NCBI GenBank assembly: GCA_913009755.1
Contig: CAJVWU010000004.1
Span: 1 to 64,000, forward strand
DNA from: an uncultured Bacteroidia bacterium
GTDB lineage: Bacteria > Bacteroidota > Bacteroidia > Bacteroidales > F082
Length of the DNA: 64,000 nt
Reading direction: 5' to 3'
Made by a program: the position numbers and the translations under genes. Numbering within the stretch: position 1 is the first letter of the stretch; each line of letters starts with the position of its first letter. This document shows positions 45,494-56,339 of this stretch, piece by piece. The notes below the pieces were generated by a model, which worked only from the letters and a program-made list of their open reading frames with translations, did not search any database and was not told the DNA's origin.

Positions 45494-46804
45494 TTAATCA
45501 ATATCGTTAAAAGCTGAATGATTCTCAAATATTGAATCCCATAACCGTTGGGCTTTACTGCCTGTTTGTAAAGCGAATTTCAGGTAAAGTTCTTCGTCCG
45601 TTGGTGGCATTTCTGCATTCCATGGGGCCGAATTTTCCAATAGACTAACCTGTGTTCCGTTTTTCAGAAAGAAGGTAACCTGCGACTTCAACTTAAAAGG
45701 AAATACTTTTGAGAATGATTCATCGGCAATAAGTGAGATTTTATCAATCAGTTTTTTAATTTTGTCATTTTGAAGGTTTAATTCCGTTACCTGCCGGGGA
45801 GTTACCTCATCAAACAACAAAGCACAGGCCAACGTGAAAGGCAAATGAAACTGAGCCTGCACAACGTTTTCAGGATATTTATGCTCGATCAGTTTAAGGG
45901 CTCGTTCAAAAACGCATATTTCAATGCGATCAATATTTTCAACCCGGACATTATGTTCTTTTTTAAGCTTTATGGCCAGGTATAAAGCAGTATGCAGCCA
46001 GCGGCAACAGGCATAAGGTTTGAAATAATTGGAATTGATCAGCCATTCACTTTGCTCATCAGCGAGTAATTTATTTTTGTCAAGGTCATTATAAGCGTCA
46101 ATAAAAAGATAAGGCCCCGAAAAACCTTTTTGTGCCAGTAAGGCGCTTTGCAAACCCGATTGCACTGCCCATGCCACCCCTTCTTTCGACATGGAACCCG
46201 TGCTCACATCTGTTGATCCCCCCTGCATTGCCGGTGATAAAACAAAAGCCAGGCTAAGGGCATGCATCAATTGTTCGATATTCAATTCGAGCAAACAAGC
46301 CGCTGTTGTTGCAGATGCAATGGCCCCCCATCTACCGGTGGCATAAGAATTTACTTTTCCGGAATATCTCGAATAACTAAAACGCGTACCTGCCTCGTAT
46401 CCAATGATCACGGCTTTTAATAGGTCAGCGTAAGGTTTTTTAAGTTTTTGCCCTAAGATCAATGCTACCGGAACCACAACACTGCCCGGGTGTCCAACGG
46501 CTTTCCGGTGACCCTCGTCAAAATCGGTTGAACTGACAGATAGTGCATTAAAAAAAACAGCGCCCGGTAAATTGGCGGTTTCCGAAGTCCCCCAAATTGA
46601 AAACGGCCCTTCACCGAAAAGTTCATTTTTTGTTTTCAAAGCCGATTGAAATGCAGGAGTATTTACCCCACTGTATGCAACGCCAACTGTGTCGCCAATC
46701 ATCCGTTTTGCCTGGTGAAAGGTGGAAGGATCAGACAATTTCCTGTTTTGCAGCAACCGGACAAACCGGTGCAGGAAATGGGCTTTTTTTGATAAAGAAT
46801 TCAT
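45494..46804 (-). CDS. MmgE/PrpD-family protein
   Basis: A 436-residue protein of the MmgE/PrpD family, which includes 2-methylcitrate dehydratase and related enzymes. Family blocks include AKRMIGDTVGVAYSG, DEGHRKAVGHPGSVVVPVAL, YSGKVNSYATGRWGAIASAT and GSTDVSTGSMSKEGVAWAVQ. No methylcitrate-cycle partner is nearby, so the substrate is uncertain. A strong hairpin with T-run precedes the gene at 46829-46861 in the same orientation. Confidence 0.85.
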   Translation of the reverse strand: MNSLSKKAHFLHRFVRLLQNRKLSDPSTFHQAKRMIGDTVGVAYSGVNTPAFQSALKTKNELFGEGPFSIWGTSETANLPGAVFFNALSVSSTDFDEGHRKAVGHPGSVVVPVALILGQKLKKPYADLLKAVIIGYEAGTRFSYSRYSGKVNSYATGRWGAIASATTAACLLELNIEQLMHALSLAFVLSPAMQGGSTDVSTGSMSKEGVAWAVQSGLQSALLAQKGFSGPYLFIDAYNDLDKNKLLADEQSEWLINSNYFKPYACCRWLHTALYLAIKLKKEHNVRVENIDRIEICVFERALKLIEHKYPENVVQAQFHLPFTLACALLFDEVTPRQVTELNLQNDKIKKLIDKISLIADESFSKVFPFKLKSQVTFFLKNGTQVSLLENSAPWNAEMPPTDEELYLKFALQTGSKAQRLWDSIFENHSAFNDID

Positions 46805-46828
46805 GCTTTAAAAGTACGATTTTCCAAC

Positions 46829-46861
46829 AAAAAAAGGCCTGCCGGAATTTTCCGGCAAGCC
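46829..46861 (-). terminator. Strong hairpin with T-run before the MmgE/PrpD gene
   Basis: On the minus strand GGCTTGCCGGAA pairs with TTCCGGCAGGCC (one mismatch) and is followed by seven T. It lies 25 bases before the MmgE/PrpD start codon. It either ends an unseen upstream transcript or sits in the leader; a weak -7-like TAGTTTTG lies 12 bases upstream, at 46880-46873. Confidence 0.8.
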
Positions 46862-47274
46862 CTGTCATAAACCAAAACTACCTACTACCGATATCGCCTT
46901 TCTTCAATAATTCGTTTCACACTCACTGCGTGGCTTTATTATAGCCTGTAACCCGGCAGGTAAAAGAAAGGTTTATAAGTTGAAGCATCCATTTCAGTTT
47001 GTTGTAAGATGTACCGGAATGAACCGGAACCTGATATTTTTGAAACAATCGGATAATAATGCGACTTCTGGTATAGCATGACTATTTTGTTAATCGTGTC
47101 TGGTAAATGTTAATACGGGAAAATAAAAAATAGGTTTCAGTTGAGTGTCAATTAATCATGATTCCACCGAATCTTTTATCCGAATAGATAACACCATTCT
47201 TTTCCGATTGAAAGATTGGCTTCCGAACAACATGAATTATTTTAAACACGGAATTCAACATTTGGCCTGATTAA

Positions 47275-47306: not shown

Positions 47307-47387
47307 GCCTATTCATTCAACCAAAACTTATGAATTAATCAGGTTAGCAATTGATAAAGTGTTCCGCGAAATCAGAGGACAAAATAA

Positions 47388-47422
47388 ATCTGCCTTTTTG
47401 AAATTTTCAAAAAGGCAGATTC
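47388..47422 (-). terminator. Terminator of the orphan LytTR-type promoter unit
   Basis: A perfect 16-bp inverted repeat (AATCTGCCTTTTTGAA, three-base loop, TTCAAAAAGGCAGATT). On the minus strand it is followed by TTATTTTG. The flanking sequence resembles the 3' end of the small gene at 47755-48000. Confidence 0.8.
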
Positions 47423-47538
47423 AGGATTGCATAAGATGAAAAGATGAGTGTTGTTAGTGAGTTAGTCCGTGAAAAATAAATATAGTTTATAGTTCGTTTT
47501 TGTTGTTTTTAGTTTGTCGTTCTTTTATAATTGAACTG
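47388..47538 (-). ncRNA. Candidate short RNA or gene relic behind a LytTR-type promoter
   Basis: A promoter-like element (TAAATTTG at 47546-47539) and a strong terminator (47422-47388) bracket about 150 bases on the minus strand with no ORF; the only ATG stops after three codons. The 3' half resembles the end of the small gene at 47755-48000, including an ACGGAC-stop matching its last two codons. It may be a small RNA, or a leader fused to a 3' end after deletion of the coding part. Confidence 0.45.
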
Positions 47539-47546
47539 CAAATTTA
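47539..47546 (-). promoter_or_regulatory. Putative -7 element at the orphan unit
   Basis: TAAATTTG on the minus strand. Its first base lies 41 bases from the nearest copy of the 21-bp-spaced direct repeat, almost the same geometry (42 bases) as in front of the adhesin gene. Confidence 0.5.
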
Positions 47547-47586
47547 TGATTACCATCTGTTTTCCAAAGAAAAAAATCAACGGATT

Positions 47587-47637
47587 GATAAGTGTGATTT
47601 TTTAACGGATAAGTGTTATATTTTATTGGATAAGTGT
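47587..47637 (-). promoter_or_regulatory. Triple direct repeat, predicted LytTR regulator binding sites (copy 2)
   Basis: Three identical words GATAAGTGT (plus strand) at 47587-47595, 47608-47616 and 47629-47637, at exactly 21-base steps. On the minus strand they read ACACTTATC. LytTR-type regulators such as AgrA bind 9-bp direct repeats with 12-13 bases between them, i.e. a 21-22 bp period. The same array occurs at 53548-53598. Confidence 0.7.
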
Positions 47638-47682
47638 AATCATTGGAATCCGGAGATTTGGAAGACGGTTATCCCGGGAAGA

Positions 47683-47723
47683 TAAAAAGCCCGCCCCTTT
47701 GGAATTTTTCAAAAGGACAGGCT
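47683..47723 (-). terminator. Terminator of the adhesin/small-protein operon
   Basis: On the minus strand AGCCTGTCCTTTTGAA pairs imperfectly with TTCCAAAGGGGCGGGCT and is followed by TTTTTATC. It lies 32 bases past the stop of the small membrane-tailed protein gene. Confidence 0.8.
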
Positions 47724-47754
47724 CGCATTGTATGTGAAAAATGAGTATCTTATA

Positions 47755-48000
47755 CTATAAGTCCGTGTCTTGCCCGGTTTTTTTCGCCAGGTCAACTACT
47801 TTTTTTCCTCCATACGCAGCCCCGAGGGTGAGCAATACAATAATTCCCCCGCTAATGGGCGCACCTCCGCCAACAGGCGGGTCACTTCCGGTGGGGCCGT
47901 TACCCGGATCCTGCGGGCTCATCATTTGTGCAAAAGAGAACGACGTTGCGAATACGAAAACAAGACTTATTATGATCTTTTTTAAATATTTGATTTTCAT
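47755..48000 (-). CDS. Small secreted protein with glycine-rich C-terminal membrane tail
   Basis: An 81-residue protein from ATG 48000; a longer in-frame start at 48093 would run back into the adhesin gene. It has a signal peptide (about 1-25, ending SFSFAQ), a Pro/Gly-rich linker (SPQDPGNGPTGSDPPVGGG), then APISGGIIVLLTLGAAYGG followed by KKVVDLAKK. The order P-I-x-G-G, hydrophobic segment, Lys cluster resembles the PID-CTERM-type sorting tails of small Bacteroidota proteins; this match is from memory and approximate. It starts 19 bases after the adhesin stop, so both are probably on one LytTR-controlled transcript. Confidence 0.65.
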   Translation of the reverse strand: MKIKYLKKIIISLVFVFATSFSFAQMMSPQDPGNGPTGSDPPVGGGAPISGGIIVLLTLGAAYGGKKVVDLAKKTGQDTDL

Positions 48001-48019: not shown

Positions 48020-51000
48020 TTATTTGACAAAAACTTTGGTTGTTGTAACACCGGATTCACAGGCCGTCCTGACGATGACAAATGCGTTATCAACGTTTAC
48101 AGAAATCCTGTTGAGTGTTGACGGATAAGCTGTTGTTTCCAAAACCGTCCGGCCAAACATGTCGTATATCCAGACTTCTTTCTTTTCTTTGGCAGCTTTT
48201 CCCTGGCTCCGGATATAGACCGCTCCGTCAAAAGCATAAACTTTGATGCCCAGATCATCTGCCTGGCCTTCAACACCGGTATATACCGGGTTAAAGTGCA
48301 GGACAAAACGAACAGGATCATCGTCAACGTAAGCTTCAAATTTATAGACCGGTTCATCAACAAGGTTTTGTACATTACCCGTTAAAAGGTCTTCCAGTAA
48401 CACCTCCGTTTCGGGCAGGTATTTCAGGTCGGCTTCAAGCTTTTGATCACCGTTTACTCCTGCTTTGTACCCTACCTTCACATCATAACCTTCTTTGGTT
48501 AACAAGGGCAAACCGTTAATGCTTAATTGCTCGCCATATTGCTCCGAATAAATCTGCGGGGCATCCCCTTCAAAAGCAAACATTTTACGGGTGTCGTAAG
48601 TATCAAATTCTTCCGATGCTTCCTCAATAAAGGCAATATTCATTTCATCGTAACCATTGTCCATTAACGCACGCAGGGACATGTGCATAGGCCCGTCGCC
48701 ATCTTCTGCCGCACTGTTTTTATAAAAACCTGTTGCAGAATGAACCCTTGCCGCCATAGGTATGGTAATGGAAGGTGCTGTACCGGTGGCCTGGATAAAG
48801 AACCCCTGTCCCATGGGGATAATACCGCCTGTAAGGCTTCCGGTTCCGGAAGATGTGTTCCAGTCAAGAAAAGTTCCACCGGTTCCGCTGTTTGGGTCCC
48901 AAACCCAGAAAGAAGTGGTTACATCGGTCAGGCTCCAAGTGCCTTCATCCAGATCAACGGGGCTGGCAAACGGGTTGCCGATGAGGTTATAACCCAGTGG
49001 TTCAGGGCCTGTATAACTTAACGGTGGCGTTGAAGAAGTGGTCAGGGTAACATTAGACCGTTGCAGGGCCCCGGTATAGTTTATGGTAACATTGTTGCTG
49101 GTTTCCACCCAGATTTCAAAACCCGCACCCGAAGGCATCGGATCAGTCAGAACATAAAGGTATGTCCTGGTGTTGTCCGGTTCGTTGTAATGCCGCAGCC
49201 AGACATCCGGGCTGTGGTTAAAATACAGGCTGTTCAGGGTTTGCCCCTGTGTTGATGCCGACACATCGTGCCATACGCCGCCGGTAACATAACGTTGAAC
49301 AGTTGCGTTGCCCGTAACGATTAGTAAACCATCGTTCAAGACAGAAGCATCACCCGTAGCATCCGAGGCAACAAGCAGGCTGCCAATGGTGGTTGCACTG
49401 CTCAGTGTGGGATAGTTTGTTAAACCCGTCGGGATGGTTACAGCCGTTCCTGAAGAAGGCAAACCGCCCGTCCAGTTCCCCGGTTTGTCCCAATCATGGT
49501 CCACCGAGCCGTTCCAGGTGGTAGCCGTAACCTGCTCAAGAACTTTGACATCATCTACATATAAATTCCATTCGTTCATATCACTATAACCGTGGAATCC
49601 AACATAGTAAGTACCGGTGGTTGCCGGGGTAAAAGTTTCCGAACCTGCCCACCAGCCAACAGTTACATTGTTATCATCAAAAATAGGGGTTCCCGACATG
49701 GATGCGGCATTGGCTGCATTTCCCCAGTCCACGGCCAGTTTCTCAGGATAACTATCACTGGCAGCAGTATAGGCAAAGGAAACTTCGTAAGTAACCCCAC
49801 CGGTTAATTGCAAACCCTGGGTAAAGAACCAGTCATTCATATTTAGCGATGTATTATAAGTAATCATCGCTGAATTGGGGGGGCTCACATATTCTGCAGT
49901 GGTTGTCTCCCAAACGATGTTATCCCCATTGACATCTTCCACGGTCATACAAGGCGGGAAAGCAGGAGCTGTCACCCCGTCAAAATTCTCAAAGTAGGGA
50001 ATCGAGGTTGTGCCACATACGGTAGTAAATGTACTGGGGCCGGTCCAGGTGCTTCCACAGCCTGCCTGTACATACCAGTCGTAGGTAGTACTTGCCGTTA
50101 ATCCACTAAGCGGGTAAGGATTTTGTGTTGTTCCGGTTATCATGGTTCCGCTACCCTGGGTAAATCCTGTTGGGCCCCACTCAATATTCCATGTTGATGC
50201 CGTACTGGTCCAGCCGAGGTCAGCCGAGGTGGTTGTAATGTTGCTTTCGGTTTGGGCTGTTGGGGCAGGACAGGCTACTGTTGTGGTAAATGTACTTGGC
50301 CCCGTCCATGTGCTCTGGTCACCACCGCAATCATCACGAACATACCAGTCATAAGTTGTCGTTGGCGATAATCCGGTCAGGGTATATGGATTGTTTGTTA
50401 TGCCTGTTACCATCGTTCCACTGCCCTGGGTAAAGCCGGTTGGCCCCCATTCAATGTCCCAGGTAGAAGAACCTCCGGTTGTCCAGCCCAGATCAGCCTG
50501 AAAACCTGAAATGTTGCTTTCGGTCTGGGCAGTGGGGGCGGGGCAGGATGGCATTTCCATTACGCTGACGTCATCAACCAATATATCGTTGTAATATTGG
50601 GTAGCTGCCGTTCCGGTAACAATAAACCGGAACTGAACATCACCTGTGATGGTATAGCCTGACAGATCAAAAAGGCCTTGTTGCCAGGAAGCATCATCTC
50701 CGGAATAGGTTAACAGATTGTTCCATGCCGCACCATCCCAGAAATCCACCGTCAGGGTGTTGTCATCTCCGGGGTTATTGGTGTTATTACTAAAAAAATA
50801 AAATTCAACTGCAGGGGTAGTTAATCCGCTCACATCCATATAAGGAGTAACCAGTGCGTTTTGCTGGATATCGCCTGAACCGTCAATCCAGGCATAATTT
50901 GTTCCTCCTCCGGGGGTATGGTCACCTGCCGCCGCCGCTCCATACCCGGCACCTGTGCTGAATAACCAGCTTTCGGCACCTGAATTGTCCCAACAGGTTG

Positions 51001-53411
51001 GTGTGGAAGAACTTGAAAAATCCTCTGAAAAAGGTGTGGAAAATGTGGCACAAGCCGTTGTAAAGGTACTTGGCCCTGTCCATGTACTAGAGGAACCGCC
51101 GCCGCAATCAGTCTGTACATACCAGTCGTAGGTTGTCGTTGGCGATAATCCGGTAAGCGAATAGGGGTTTGAACCCGTTCCGGTGATCATGGTTCCGCTG
51201 CCCTGTGTAAACCCGGTCGGGCCCCACTCAATGTTCCAGGTAGTTTCGCTTCCACCCGGTGTCCAGCCGAGGTCAGCCGAGGTGGCTGTAATGTTACTTT
51301 CGGTTTGGGCTGTGGGTGCGGGGCAGGATGGTGTTAGCTCACAGGCTAGATCATCAAATGTAATATACCAGGGACTTGAGGTAGCCACTACATGAATTCC
51401 CATGTAAGTAGGTGCCTGAAGTTGCCGGTGTAAAACTGCCCCGGTATTCAACATAGGTTGTATTGGTTGGACCGGAAACAGGGGTGCCTATTGCTGTGGT
51501 CATATCCCCTGATGTTTGCCCGGTTCCATATTTTGCTTCTACGGTTGTCCATCCTGAATTCCCATCGGTAACATACCAAAATGAGAAATCATAGGATGTT
51601 CCACCTGTAAGGTCAATAGGTGGTGAAAATAACCAGTCATCAGCACTATAATTTGTATAAATATAATTGGTGCCGGTCCTTGCATCCCTGTTATAAGTTT
51701 GGGGAGCATCAGCAGTAGCCCAGTCACCGTCTTCAGCCATACAATTGGGCACTATTCCCGCACCGACGGAAGGCATACCTTCAAACCCTTCATTCCAGGA
51801 GACTGAAACTGATGTACACGCCGTTGTAAACGTACTCGGCCCTGTCCAGGTGCTCTGGTCTCCTCCGCAATCGGCCTGCACATACCAGTCGTAGGTTGTG
51901 GCTGCTGTTAAGCCGGTAAGTGTGTATGGGTGGGAAGAAACAGCCTGTGTTGTGCCGCTGCCCTGTGTAAAACCTGTCGGGCCATATTCAATGTTCCATC
52001 CTGTTTCGCTTCCGCCGTTTGTCCAGTCAAGGTCAGCCGAAGTGGCTGTGATGTTGCTTTCGGCCTGGGCAGTGGGGGCGGGGCAGGAAGGCGGGGTACG
52101 TACCTGGAAATTGTCCACATAAAAATTGTAATCTTCAGTATCGTCAACAGAACCATCGCTTGCCCAGAATGCAAATTGAACCGGGTTTCCTGTATAAGCA
52201 CTGATATCCACAGTTGTATTATCACCTGTATTGGATGGTGTGTTGCCTGTATTCCAAGTCATCAGGTTGCTCCATGTTATACCGCCATCGGTTGTTACCA
52301 ACAATTGTACTTCATCATCCGACCCCATGTTGGAGGAACCCGTTCCCGAATATGTAGTAACAGCAACATCAAAATTTAATTCGAAACCGCCACCTGTAAG
52401 ATCAAAATTAGGTGTAATGAGCCAATCTTGGTGAGATGTGCTATAAAGGTTTATCCTTGCGCTTCCTGTTGTGCCATTATTGGCAAAGCCATCAGATGTC
52501 CACGCACTTATTCCTGATGTACCGGTTGGGCCGGTTACAGGTCCTGTGTTTTCATCCCAGCAATTGGGCAAGAAAGTTGTGAAGTCTTCAAGATAATCAG
52601 GTGTGTATGTTCCACAAGTCGTAGTAAAAGTACCCGGCCCTGTCCATGTACTCTGGTCACCGCCGCAATCTGCCTGTACATACCAGTCGTAAGTGGTAGC
52701 TGCCGTTAAACCGGTCAGCGAATATGGGTTTGAACCGGTTCCGGTAATCATGGTTCCGCTACCCTGGGTAAAGCCGGTGGGTCCCCACTCGATGTTCCAT
52801 GTAGTTGCTGTGCCGTTTTCTGTCCATCCGAGGTTAGCCGAGTTGGTTGTAATATTGGTTTCGGTTTGGGCGGAGGGGGCGGGGCAGGAAGGAACGTAAA
52901 GAGCAGGTCCTGATACATCGTCAACATATAAGTAATATTGATAATTACTGTAATAATGAATAGCAACGTACTTTGTGCCAACAGGCAAATCAGTTTTTGA
53001 GTATTGCTGCCATGTAGTAGATGCATCAGAAATTTCGGAACTCCATGTAAAATCAGTACTTACATCGGTTCCTGTTGATGACCAACCAACTTTGAAAACC
53101 TCAGATCCTGATGAATATCTTCTATACCAAAAAGTTATGGTCTGATCCCCACTTGTTGTAACAAGCTGTGGAGTAATAAGATATTCGTCATAACCGCTAC
53201 CGCATGAGGAAAAAGAACTGAAGCGGGCCGAATAGGTGCCACTATGGGCATAGGTACTGCTCTGGGTTATGTCGTTTGTTGGCGAGCAAGCTCCCTGGTC
53301 AATAGTCCAATCAGTTGGCGGCCAGGTTTCAAATCCTTCGCTTAATTGCCCAAATGCAAAACCACTAAATGCGAGGGCAAAAAGTAATAAAAGTAATTTT
53401 TTTCGTTTCAT
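48020..53411 (-). pseudogene. Giant modular T9SS adhesin interrupted by one frameshift
   Basis: Two overlapping frames (53411-51354 and 51454-48020) form one protein of about 1,795 residues, broken by one extra base near 51406: the text reads GTYLHG in the first frame and TYMGIH in the second, where G-T-Y-Y-M-G-I-H is expected, as in GTYYVGFH later in the same protein. Order: signal peptide (MKRKKLLLLLFALAFSGFAF), then five choice-of-anchor-J (MAM-like) modules alternating with five near-identical fibronectin III modules (CPAPTAQTESNIT to TWTGPSTFTTA), a C-terminal region of about 420 residues, and a T9SS-type sorting tail (VWIYDMFGRTVLET to TTTKVFVK). It is probably a cell-surface adhesin. 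A sequencing or assembly error could explain the break, in which case the gene is intact. Confidence 0.8.
51404..51410 (-). other. Site of the single-base frameshift in the adhesin
   Basis: Plus-strand GTAAGTA; removing one A (51406 or 51407) restores a continuous frame reading G-T-Y-Y-M-G-I-H. The run is only two bases long, so slippage in a long homopolymer is not the cause. Confidence 0.75.
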
Positions 53412-53506: not shown

Positions 53507-53547
53507 ATACCAAATGTTAAGAAAATATTAATATATGTAGATGGATT

Positions 53548-53598
53548 GATAAGTGTAATGTTATGATGGATAAGTGTGTACATTTACAGGGTAAGTGT
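53548..53598 (-). promoter_or_regulatory. Triple direct repeat, predicted LytTR regulator binding sites (copy 1)
   Basis: GATAAGTGT at 53548-53556 and 53569-53577 and GGTAAGTGT at 53590-53598 (plus strand), at exactly 21-base steps. They lie 137-187 bases upstream of the adhesin start codon and just past the stop of the LytTR regulator gene. The arrangement matches direct-repeat sites of LytTR proteins. Confidence 0.75.
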
Positions 53599-53662: not shown

Positions 53663-54406
53663 CTAAAGTGAATTAAACTTTTCGAGCAACCGTTCTTTTT
53701 TCCGGCTGGAAACGGGTACTTTTTTACCATTGCTCATCAAAACGTAAGCGTTGCTTATTTTGTGAAACTTTTTCACTTCGTTCAGGTTGACCAGGTAAGA
53801 ATGGTGTACCCTGAAAAAATGATGATCTTTCAACAATTCATCGTATTCTTTCAGATGGTTGGAAACAGTGAGCTGTGAACCGTCTTTCAGGAAAAAGTGT
53901 GTGTAGCTTGAATCGGCCTCGCAATTGATGATGTCGGAAATATTGACCAGGTGTATTTCGTCAGCAGTTTTCAGCACGATTCTTTTTTGTTCCCTGTTGT
54001 CAATATTGTTCAATAAAGTTTCAAGGTTGACTTCCGTCTTTTTTCTACTGACAGCTTCTGCAGCTTTGTCAACTGCCAATGTAAGCTCTTCAACGCTGAA
54101 CGGTTTTAAAATATAATCAAACGCGCTGAATTTAATGGCTTTCAGTGCATATCCTTCGTGGGCCGTAACAAAAATAATCTGAAAATCAATGTTGAAAACA
54201 TGCCGTAAAATATCAAAAGCCGTGCCGTCAGAAAGTTCCACATCAATCAAAAGGATATCCGGGTGACCGTTGTAGATGGCATCAATACCGGTTTTAATAT
54301 TATGCCCGTTGGCAACAACTTTTATATCATGGCATAAACGGTTGATGATATTTGTTATGGCTTCCCGTGTTTTGGGCTCATCTTCTATGACCACCGCTTT
54401 CAGCAT
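53663..54406 (-). CDS. LytTR-family response regulator
   Basis: A 247-residue regulator from ATG 54406; an in-frame start eight codons upstream is less likely. The receiver domain (about 1-120) has the acidic pair in VVIEDEPKTR, the phospho-acceptor Asp55 in DILLIDVELSDG and the conserved Lys in YILKPFSVEEL. The LytTR DNA-binding domain (about 145-245) has VNISDIINCEADSSYTHFFL and HHFFRVHHSYLVNLNEVKKF. It follows the histidine kinase gene with a 44-base gap, forming a two-component pair. The direct repeats at 53548-53598 and 47587-47637 are its likely targets. Confidence 0.92.
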   Translation of the reverse strand: MLKAVVIEDEPKTREAITNIINRLCHDIKVVANGHNIKTGIDAIYNGHPDILLIDVELSDGTAFDILRHVFNIDFQIIFVTAHEGYALKAIKFSAFDYILKPFSVEELTLAVDKAAEAVSRKKTEVNLETLLNNIDNREQKRIVLKTADEIHLVNISDIINCEADSSYTHFFLKDGSQLTVSNHLKEYDELLKDHHFFRVHHSYLVNLNEVKKFHKISNAYVLMSNGKKVPVSSRKKERLLEKFNSL

Positions 54407-54450
54407 TTTTTTATTCTTGTTTAAATGCAAAAGTAATAAAAGCCAATTAT

Positions 54451-56274
54451 TTAATCCAGTTTCATTTTAAAGGTAACCCTTGTGCCTGCCGGTTCCCTGT
54501 TTTGATCATAAAGGTCTTCTATTTCCATACTTATTTTTTTCTTATATCTCCTGGCCATCAGATGAATGCGCTCTTTCGTGATTTCAGTGGCCAGTGACAG
54601 GTGTTTTTCGTCTTTGTTCAGTTTTTCCGCATTCTCCCTTCCGATACCATTATCCTCAATCATCACGGTCAGTTCATTGTTTTTTTCTTCAAAAAGGATT
54701 TTCAGAAATCCTTTTTTCGGGGCGGGGGCGAGGCCGTGAATGATTGCATTTTCGATAAACGGCTGGGCAAGCATGGGCGGAAAAAGTATTTCTTCGGGAT
54801 GCGCAACTTTTACTTCGAATGAATAATCGAACTTATCGCTAAACCGTAACTTTTCCAGTTTTACAAATTGTTGCAAGACCTCTATTTCTTTATCCAGTGT
54901 AATAAAACTTTTGTTTGTCTGCTGTAAAATACTCCGGATCAGTTTGGCAAAGTCAACCAGATATTCCGAGGCCTTTTCCACATTATTATCCAGCAAAAAG
55001 GTTTGAATGGACATCAGCGAATTAAACACAAAGTGGGGTGACGTCTGCGAGCGGAACAAGCGGGATTGTAACGTGATGACTTCCTGTTCTTTTTTATAAC
55101 GGTTTTTCAGGAAAATCAAAACGATGATAATGATTGTTAAAACAAAAATGGTGATCAGGGCAAAGGAAACCGTTCTTGCCCACGTAAGTTTCAACTCATT
55201 TAATTCACCCTGTTTTTTCAGCATTTTAATTTCATGTTCCCTTTTCTCCAGTTCGAAATTGGTTTCAAGCTGATGGATTTTTTTAATTTTTTTGAGGTTG
55301 ATGAGCTGATCCCTGATTTGGGCATATTTTCTAAAACACATTAAGGCATCTTTGTAATCGCCGGTTTGCTCGTACAATTTCGCCATATCATTGCAAATCT
55401 GCGATTGCATCTTTTTAATTTGATGTTGTTCTGACAACTTGTTGGCCTGCGTGTAATATTTTAAGGCTTCATCATAATTTGATTCACTATGATAAGCCAG
55501 CCCCAGGTAATAAAGTGCCGAAGCAATATCATTAGGGTCTTCTGTTTTTTTGAAAATCGTTAGTGCTTTTTCAAAAAAATCTTTTGCCTTTTCAATTTCC
55601 CCTTTTCTGAGATGGATCAGCCCAAGATTACTATAGATCATGCCCACATCCCTTTTGTCACCGATATTCTTATATATTTTCATGGCCAGGTCATAATAAT
55701 AATAGGCGCTGTCGTTATTGTTAAATACACCTCCATGTATAATGGCTATGTTGTTATAGGTTCCGGCTATACTCGTCTGCTCACCCCTTTCTTTTTTCAG
55801 TTTGAGCGCCTTAAAGTAATAATTAAGCGCTTTGTGGGGCATGTCCATTTCTTCGTAAACAATGCCTATGTTGTTCAATACACTTTCTTTCCCTTCCTTG
55901 TTATTAAGGTACTCATATATATTTAACGATTTTTGGTAATTATAAATTGACAGCGAATAATTTCCGATCATGTCATTGATGACACCGATATTCGAATACA
56001 TCTTGGCAATATACAGGCTGTCGTTTATGCTCCGGGCAATTTCGAGGGATTTTGAAAAATTCCCGAGGGCATCGGCATAATTTGCTTTCCGATATTGCAA
56101 TTTGCCGATCTGATTGAACAGCTTCATTTGTTTAGCCGGTTCCGCATCCACTGCCAGTTGTTTTAAGCTGTCAATATCACCTTGGGGAAATGCAGAAAAC
56201 AAAGGGAAAATAAAGAGTACGATAAAAATAACATGTTGAACTTTATTTTTAAAGAGATGTTTCGATTCATTCAT
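54451..56274 (-). CDS. TPR-containing LytS-like sensor histidine kinase
   Basis: A 607-residue kinase from ATG 56274. After an N-terminal signal or anchor (HVIFIVLFIFPLFSAFPQ) comes an exported region of TPR repeats (about 30-310, e.g. NYADALGNFSKSLEIARSIN, GEIEKAKDFFEKALTIFKKT) and a coiled coil (about 310-355). A single membrane segment follows at about 360-385 (VSFALITIFVLTIIIIVLIF). The cytoplasmic kinase core has the His in RSQTSPHFVFNSL and the ATP-binding blocks FIENAIIHGLAPAPKKG and VMIEDNGIGRENA. It belongs to the His_kinase/LytS class that pairs with LytTR regulators. The sensed signal is unknown. Confidence 0.9.
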   Translation of the reverse strand: MNESKHLFKNKVQHVIFIVLFIFPLFSAFPQGDIDSLKQLAVDAEPAKQMKLFNQIGKLQYRKANYADALGNFSKSLEIARSINDSLYIAKMYSNIGVINDMIGNYSLSIYNYQKSLNIYEYLNNKEGKESVLNNIGIVYEEMDMPHKALNYYFKALKLKKERGEQTSIAGTYNNIAIIHGGVFNNNDSAYYYYDLAMKIYKNIGDKRDVGMIYSNLGLIHLRKGEIEKAKDFFEKALTIFKKTEDPNDIASALYYLGLAYHSESNYDEALKYYTQANKLSEQHQIKKMQSQICNDMAKLYEQTGDYKDALMCFRKYAQIRDQLINLKKIKKIHQLETNFELEKREHEIKMLKKQGELNELKLTWARTVSFALITIFVLTIIIIVLIFLKNRYKKEQEVITLQSRLFRSQTSPHFVFNSLMSIQTFLLDNNVEKASEYLVDFAKLIRSILQQTNKSFITLDKEIEVLQQFVKLEKLRFSDKFDYSFEVKVAHPEEILFPPMLAQPFIENAIIHGLAPAPKKGFLKILFEEKNNELTVMIEDNGIGRENAEKLNKDEKHLSLATEITKERIHLMARRYKKKISMEIEDLYDQNREPAGTRVTFKMKLD

Positions 56275-56278
56275 AACG

Positions 56279-56286
56279 CAAAGATA
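56279..56286 (-). promoter_or_regulatory. Putative -7 element of the kinase gene
   Basis: TATCTTTG on the minus strand ends only five bases before the kinase ATG at 56274. If used, the mRNA would be leaderless or nearly so. Confidence 0.4.
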
Positions 56287-56339
56287 ATGAGTTGTTATTT
56301 CCAACATGTATTTTACTGATTTTTAGCCAACATGTTTTC

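Follow-up and report, generated by a model that had tools for sequence, protein, structure and literature searches.

Within the window (the whole stretch of 64,000 nucleotides that was analysed), a short unit made up of a LytTR-type box array, a promoter, an ORF-free stretch and a terminator is likely to encode a small RNA belonging to the LytTR two-component system next to it, in an arrangement like that of fasBCA-fasX in Streptococcus. It is not a stray promoter. This assignment is drawn from sequence comparisons within the window, across the genome of the host, an uncultured Bacteroidales bacterium (4.05 Mb; G000 below), and among its relatives. In the mechanism that we propose, the TPR kinase would activate the LytTR regulator, which would then bind directly to three in-phase boxes and activate a promoter of the sigma-ABfr type. 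The resulting monocistronic RNA of about 150 nt would end at a hairpin and most likely act in trans, pairing with mRNAs through its single-stranded body. The regulator is read as an activator because of the position of the boxes.

Read along the minus strand, the locus runs from the TPR histidine kinase gene through the LytTR regulator gene, array 1, the adhesin gene, a PID-CTERM-like gene and a terminator to array 2 and its promoter; beyond these lie about 110 nt free of ORFs, the terminator of the unit, a gap of about 580 nt and then an MmgE/PrpD gene. The features are as follows:

54451-56307, minus strand: TPR sensor histidine kinase gene, the regulator's partner (Pfam TPR and His_kinase)
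53663-54430, minus strand: LytTR response regulator gene, the presumed controller (Pfam Response_reg and LytTR)
53547-53598, minus strand: array 1, the same three boxes as in array 2, 5' of the adhesin gene, with the -7 element TATCTTTA at the same distance
48020-53411, minus strand: gene for an fn3/MAM adhesin-like secreted protein, read as two overlapping ORFs
47755-48000, minus strand: gene for a small PID-CTERM-like protein at the end of the adhesin operon (PID_CTERM 20.0 bits, under the cut-off of 26)
47681-47778, minus strand: 3' end of the adhesin operon with its terminator, the best non-self match of the unit's RNA model genome-wide
47724-47687, minus strand: adhesin operon terminator
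47637-47629, 47616-47608 and 47595-47587, minus strand: array 2, in which the ACACTTATC box occurs three times with a period of exactly 21 bp; presumed binding sites of the LytTR regulator for the unit
47539-47568, minus strand: sigma-ABfr-type promoter, with -33 TTTG at 47568-47565, an 18-nt spacer and -7 TAAATTTG at 47546-47539; predicted start near 47535
47381-47535, minus strand: predicted noncoding transcript of about 150 nt, a putative small RNA (no shared ORF, unstructured body, conservation)
47423-47385, minus strand: terminator hairpin of the unit, with perfect 17-nt arms at 47421-47405 and 47403-47387

The kinase is remotely similar to FimS, scoring 136.8 bits where the cut-off is 600, and a single-sequence structure model of the regulator had a mean pLDDT of 50, too poor for use. 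LytTR systems with TPR kinases recur beside genes for secreted proteins in these Bacteroidales genomes. The two adhesin ORFs (51354-53411 and 48020-51454) are separated by one frameshift near 51390-51420 on the minus strand, outside any homopolymer, which is either an assembly error or a true mutation. Small PID-CTERM-like genes directly 3' of giant secreted-protein genes recur throughout the genus, with several pairs per genome (L141 8467, L143 12550, L144 1885, L146 6997 and 15164, L147 9437), and the two proteins of such a pair may be partners. Between its PID-CTERM gene and its unit, a related genome, G001, has the truncated start of a gene, with a sequence resembling a signal peptide (L048 7429-7545).

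LytTR proteins recognize direct repeats of about 9 bp, mostly 12 bp apart (PMC6193735), and the exact 21-bp steps of array 2 agree with this spacing. When the whole host genome was searched for the three-box pattern with up to three mismatches, three places were returned: array 2 with none, array 1 at 53598 with one and a low-complexity AT repeat with three. Only two real arrays are thus present in the genome, both at this locus, array 1 being that of the adhesin promoter by the LytTR regulator gene. A matrix combining boxes and -7 element gave scores of 52.9 for array 2 and 49.4 for array 1, the best score in 30 Markov copies of the window being 14.7; having been trained partly on these arrays, the matrix illustrates rather than tests, and the genome-wide pattern count is the better check. 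The position of the array relative to the promoter is fixed: in all eight arrays, taken from five genomes (two each from G000, G001 and G013, one each from G002 and G003), a -7 element of the form TAnnTTTG or TAnnTTTA lies 48-50 nt after the start of box 3, which by the -7 spacing puts box 3 near -58. Array 2 is conserved in G001 and G002 and degenerate in G003. Under a strict self-similarity filter, the genus showed no further 21-bp array at its LytTR or PID-CTERM loci, nor was there one in the inspected stretches of other weak DNA matches in the family (L118-L122). The geometry that array 2 has in common with the adhesin promoter, together with adjacency to the regulator gene in two species, lends support to LytTR control of the unit, which an earlier note on this DNA had proposed; binding of the regulator to the boxes we infer from linkage, geometry and co-occurrence with regulator orthologues.

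Judged by the published Bacteroidota consensus (PMC7366714), the unit has a full promoter (TTTG-18-TAAATTTG), whereas the adhesin promoter has only a TAnnTTTA -7 element at the expected place. The transcript body of about 110 nt is unstructured, G-poor and A-rich on its 5' side, and contains no conserved ORF, the sense ORFs of at least five codons in G000, G001 and G002 being tiny and species-specific. The earlier note was accurate in describing a triple array on the minus strand, in which we count no mismatches, a transcript start near 47535 and the lack of a usable ORF. Its perfect 16-bp terminator at 47422-47388 is indeed a perfect hairpin, with arms that are slightly longer (17 nt); in G000 the U tract (UUUAUUUU) is broken. 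With a promoter and a terminator of its own and no conserved ORF, the unit has the make-up of a small-RNA gene. A search of Rfam gave no match at the gathering threshold and, at E values up to 1, unrelated matches only.

A DNA search of 61 genomes (the host's own and 60 relatives) located the whole unit in two genomes of the same genus, G002 at 74% identity and G001 at 73%, and an RNA model built from the three units, run on 173 genomes of the family, detected it in none but these. Between G001 and G002, 99 of 112 positions of the transcript body are identical (88%), compared with 44% of the fourfold sites in the regulator gene (Fisher p = 1e-10). The excess over the rest of the intergenic region, which is 76% identical, is smaller (p = 0.005), in part owing to another conserved element there. 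The G000 body, with a 5-nt insertion, is 63-65% identical to the other two; this exceeds the identity at the fourfold sites of MmgE (p = 4e-6 and 2e-4), but measured against the regulator's fourfold sites there is no significant excess (p about 0.2). Evidence for selection on the body thus comes mainly from the G001-G002 pair. The terminator hairpin offers evidence separate from body identity: all 14 of its pairs are formed in all three species, four of them having changed on both sides in a compensatory manner, and sliding the columns by 1-3 left at most 67% paired. Presence of the whole unit in three species of one genus and, diverged, in a fourth, together with these stem changes, argues for the small-RNA reading that the earlier note had raised, and answers its suggestion that the same promoter-terminator unit be sought in related genomes.

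The fourth species, G003, has a regulator that is 64% identical; 51 nt behind its gene come boxes, then a -7 element and then a terminator, as in the other units. Its predicted transcript, at about 195 nt, is longer and diverged; a convergent transporter gene lies beyond, and no co-directional gene comes next. The RNA model matches G003 over its full length exactly at the place of the unit (E = 0.27, 137 kb searched), and a local alignment of the G003 and G001 transcripts scores above all 500 shuffles, which lends support, weak on its own, to homology of this unit with the others. The order in G002 is regulator gene, unit, MmgE, with the unit immediately after the regulator gene; neither the adhesin gene nor the PID-CTERM gene is present at the locus, although paralogues of the small PID-CTERM-like protein occur elsewhere. 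G002 has thus kept kinase, regulator and unit there but no adhesin operon. Two of the four species therefore have the unit next to the regulator gene; in G000 and G001 the two are separated by the adhesin operon. A pattern search of G002 and G003, both incomplete drafts, detected no other array, which makes the unit the only recognizable target array of the two-component system in two species. This, and the absence of the adhesin from the G002 locus, argue against a decoy and against a role limited to the neighbouring adhesin.

The suggestion that the RNA tunes the adhesin is accordingly unsupported, and the pairing with the adhesin leader that the earlier note proposed looking for is without significance (z = +0.2 in G000 and -1.5 in G001). 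When the body was tested for pairing with the starts of local genes, the results in G000, G001 and G002 stayed at chance level and showed nothing consistent. In six genomes of the genus, exact 13-mer complements of the conserved ACTAAAAACA stretch numbered one or two per genome, the same as in the control.

How the unit arose bears on the first of the alternatives. In a search of the whole host genome, the best non-self match of the RNA model falls at 47778-47681 (E = 0.025, or 0.00085 in a 137-kb search), where the adhesin operon has its 3' end, close upstream of array 2. Outside the terminator, the similarity between the two is significant in G000 (0 of 500 shuffles) and not significant in G001 or G002 (p 0.18 and 0.30); similarity between the adhesin leaders and the transcript is likewise not significant. 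Since the 3' half of the G000 unit resembles the adhesin-operon 3' UTR, the unit may have arisen as a copy of the operon with an internal deletion, or the ends may have exchanged sequence in the G000 lineage. The resemblance would also fit a decaying remnant of an adhesin-type operon, in which array and leader became joined to 3' UTR and terminator after gene loss and have no present function; paralogous adhesin/PID-CTERM pairs have been gained and lost within the genus, and conservation between G000 and the others is moderate. We nevertheless think a remnant unlikely, as the G001 and G002 bodies are 88% identical at saturated synonymous divergence, the hairpin has changed in a compensatory way, boxes and promoter are intact in three species, and G002 has retained the unit without the adhesin.

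The earlier note had also offered a decoy operator, whose boxes titrate the regulator while the transcript is incidental. Three near-perfect boxes, equal in strength to those of the adhesin promoter, and a regulator with very few sites would suit such a role, but a full promoter, a conserved transcript and a terminator would be superfluous in a decoy, yet all of them are conserved, and in G002 and G003 there is no other recognizable site to buffer; a pure decoy is thus very improbable. Little more can be said for a leader with an attenuating terminator that would serve the downstream MmgE/PrpD operon by read-through, to which we attach a similarly small probability: MmgE is the next co-directional gene in G000, G001 and G002, but about 400-580 nt and a second conserved terminator intervene, MmgE seems to own a -7 element (TACTTTTA) beside its start, and no co-directional gene follows the unit in G003. 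Least credible of all is a very short peptide gene or leader peptide, for which G001 has a seven-codon ORF (ATG to TAA) at the predicted transcript start that is absent from G000 and G002, there being no sense ORF common to the species and a 5-nt insertion in the G000 body.

Two elements upstream of MmgE/PrpD deserve separate mention. At 46827-46945 (minus strand), directly upstream of that gene, is a second conserved noncoding element, with GAAAGGCGATATCGGTARTAGGTAGTTTTGGTTTATGACAGG and a strong terminator at 46863-46834; it is 85% identical in G002 and 81% in G001, belongs to no Rfam family and is a candidate for a second small RNA or an attenuator. At 46804-46818 (minus strand), a -7-like element, TACTTTTA, immediately precedes the start codon of MmgE/PrpD and is conserved in G001 (TACCTTTA) and G002 (TACTTTTA); its abutting the start codon suggests a nearly leaderless MmgE mRNA.

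If the unit is, as we favour, the small-RNA gene of its two-component system, FasBCA-FasX of Streptococcus appears to be the closest known design. In both, one or more kinases and a regulator are followed in the same locus by a separately transcribed small-RNA gene with regulator repeats upstream of the RNA promoter: FasX has its own transcript within the fasBCAX locus, FasA has been proposed to bind the repeats, and adhesins are among the targets of FasX (PMC12675982). An RNA gene directly behind its own regulator gene is what is seen in G002 and G003. The streptococcal system differs in belonging to the Firmicutes and in having two repeats and a sigma-70-type promoter, as against three boxes and a sigma-ABfr-type promoter here; the likeness is one of function and design, sequence homology being neither expected nor found in Rfam. 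A more adventurous version, which we regard as doubtful, holds that this is the Bacteroidota counterpart of fasBCA-fasX, and that the ancestral LytTR target, in some species the only recognizable one, is a small-RNA gene built from an internally deleted adhesin operon (array, leader, 3' UTR and terminator), whose RNA would carry the 3' end of the operon and may be a sponge or mimic.

Other systems share parts of the design. In Staphylococcus, the LytTR regulator AgrA activates the regulatory RNA RNAIII from direct repeats, the promoter-proximal one lying near -60 (PMC4227749), close to the position of box 3 in the unit; unlike the unit, RNAIII is long and structured, encodes delta-haemolysin and belongs to a quorum sensing system with divergent promoters. 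VirR of Clostridium perfringens, a two-component response regulator of protein genes and of the regulatory VR-RNA, also acts through direct-repeat boxes fixed in position and helical phase relative to the promoter (PMC2838878). In contrast to the array described here, VirR has two boxes, of unrelated sequence. To our knowledge, VR-RNA is not encoded beside virSR. Within the Bacteroidota, GibS of Bacteroides thetaiotaomicron is likewise intergenic and about 145 nt in length; a long portion on its 5' side is single-stranded and a terminator forms its 3' end, but it lies at an unrelated locus and targets metabolic genes, and LytTR is not mentioned in its description (PMC7366714). Rfp18 of Flavobacterium psychrophilum resembles the unit in being a genus-conserved small RNA of the Bacteroidota, with metalloproteases and a secreted adhesin among its predicted targets; it differs in being strongly structured, and no LytTR system is mentioned (PMC9723704).

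LytTR-driven small RNAs beside their own system are already known, and regulatory small RNAs of this general kind have been described from streptococci, staphylococci and clostridia. We found no description of a LytTR array or a LytTR-controlled small RNA from the Bacteroidota in the open-access literature, and it is probable that the unit is a regulatory RNA of this known kind in a phylum for which no described case was found there. This suggests that the Firmicutes design, from LytTR regulator to small RNA, is present in a second phylum. The locus provides one specific RNA as a test object and a concrete definition of a regulon: three boxes spaced by 21 bp and a -7 element that begins 48-50 nt downstream of the first base of box 3.

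The arrays of other genera in the family (L079, L080, L081-L083) lie close to protein genes. At L081 6980-7063, L082 722 and L083 7085, ACACTTAC...CCGAC boxes recur in tandem every 21 bp, with elements resembling TATTTTTG or TAATTTTG after them; these are probably further LytTR-type arrays. At L080 7452 (minus strand), three ACCACTTAT boxes at 21-bp steps have a TACTTTTA element at the distance given by the rule, upstream of genes that include one for an ABC transporter-like protein.
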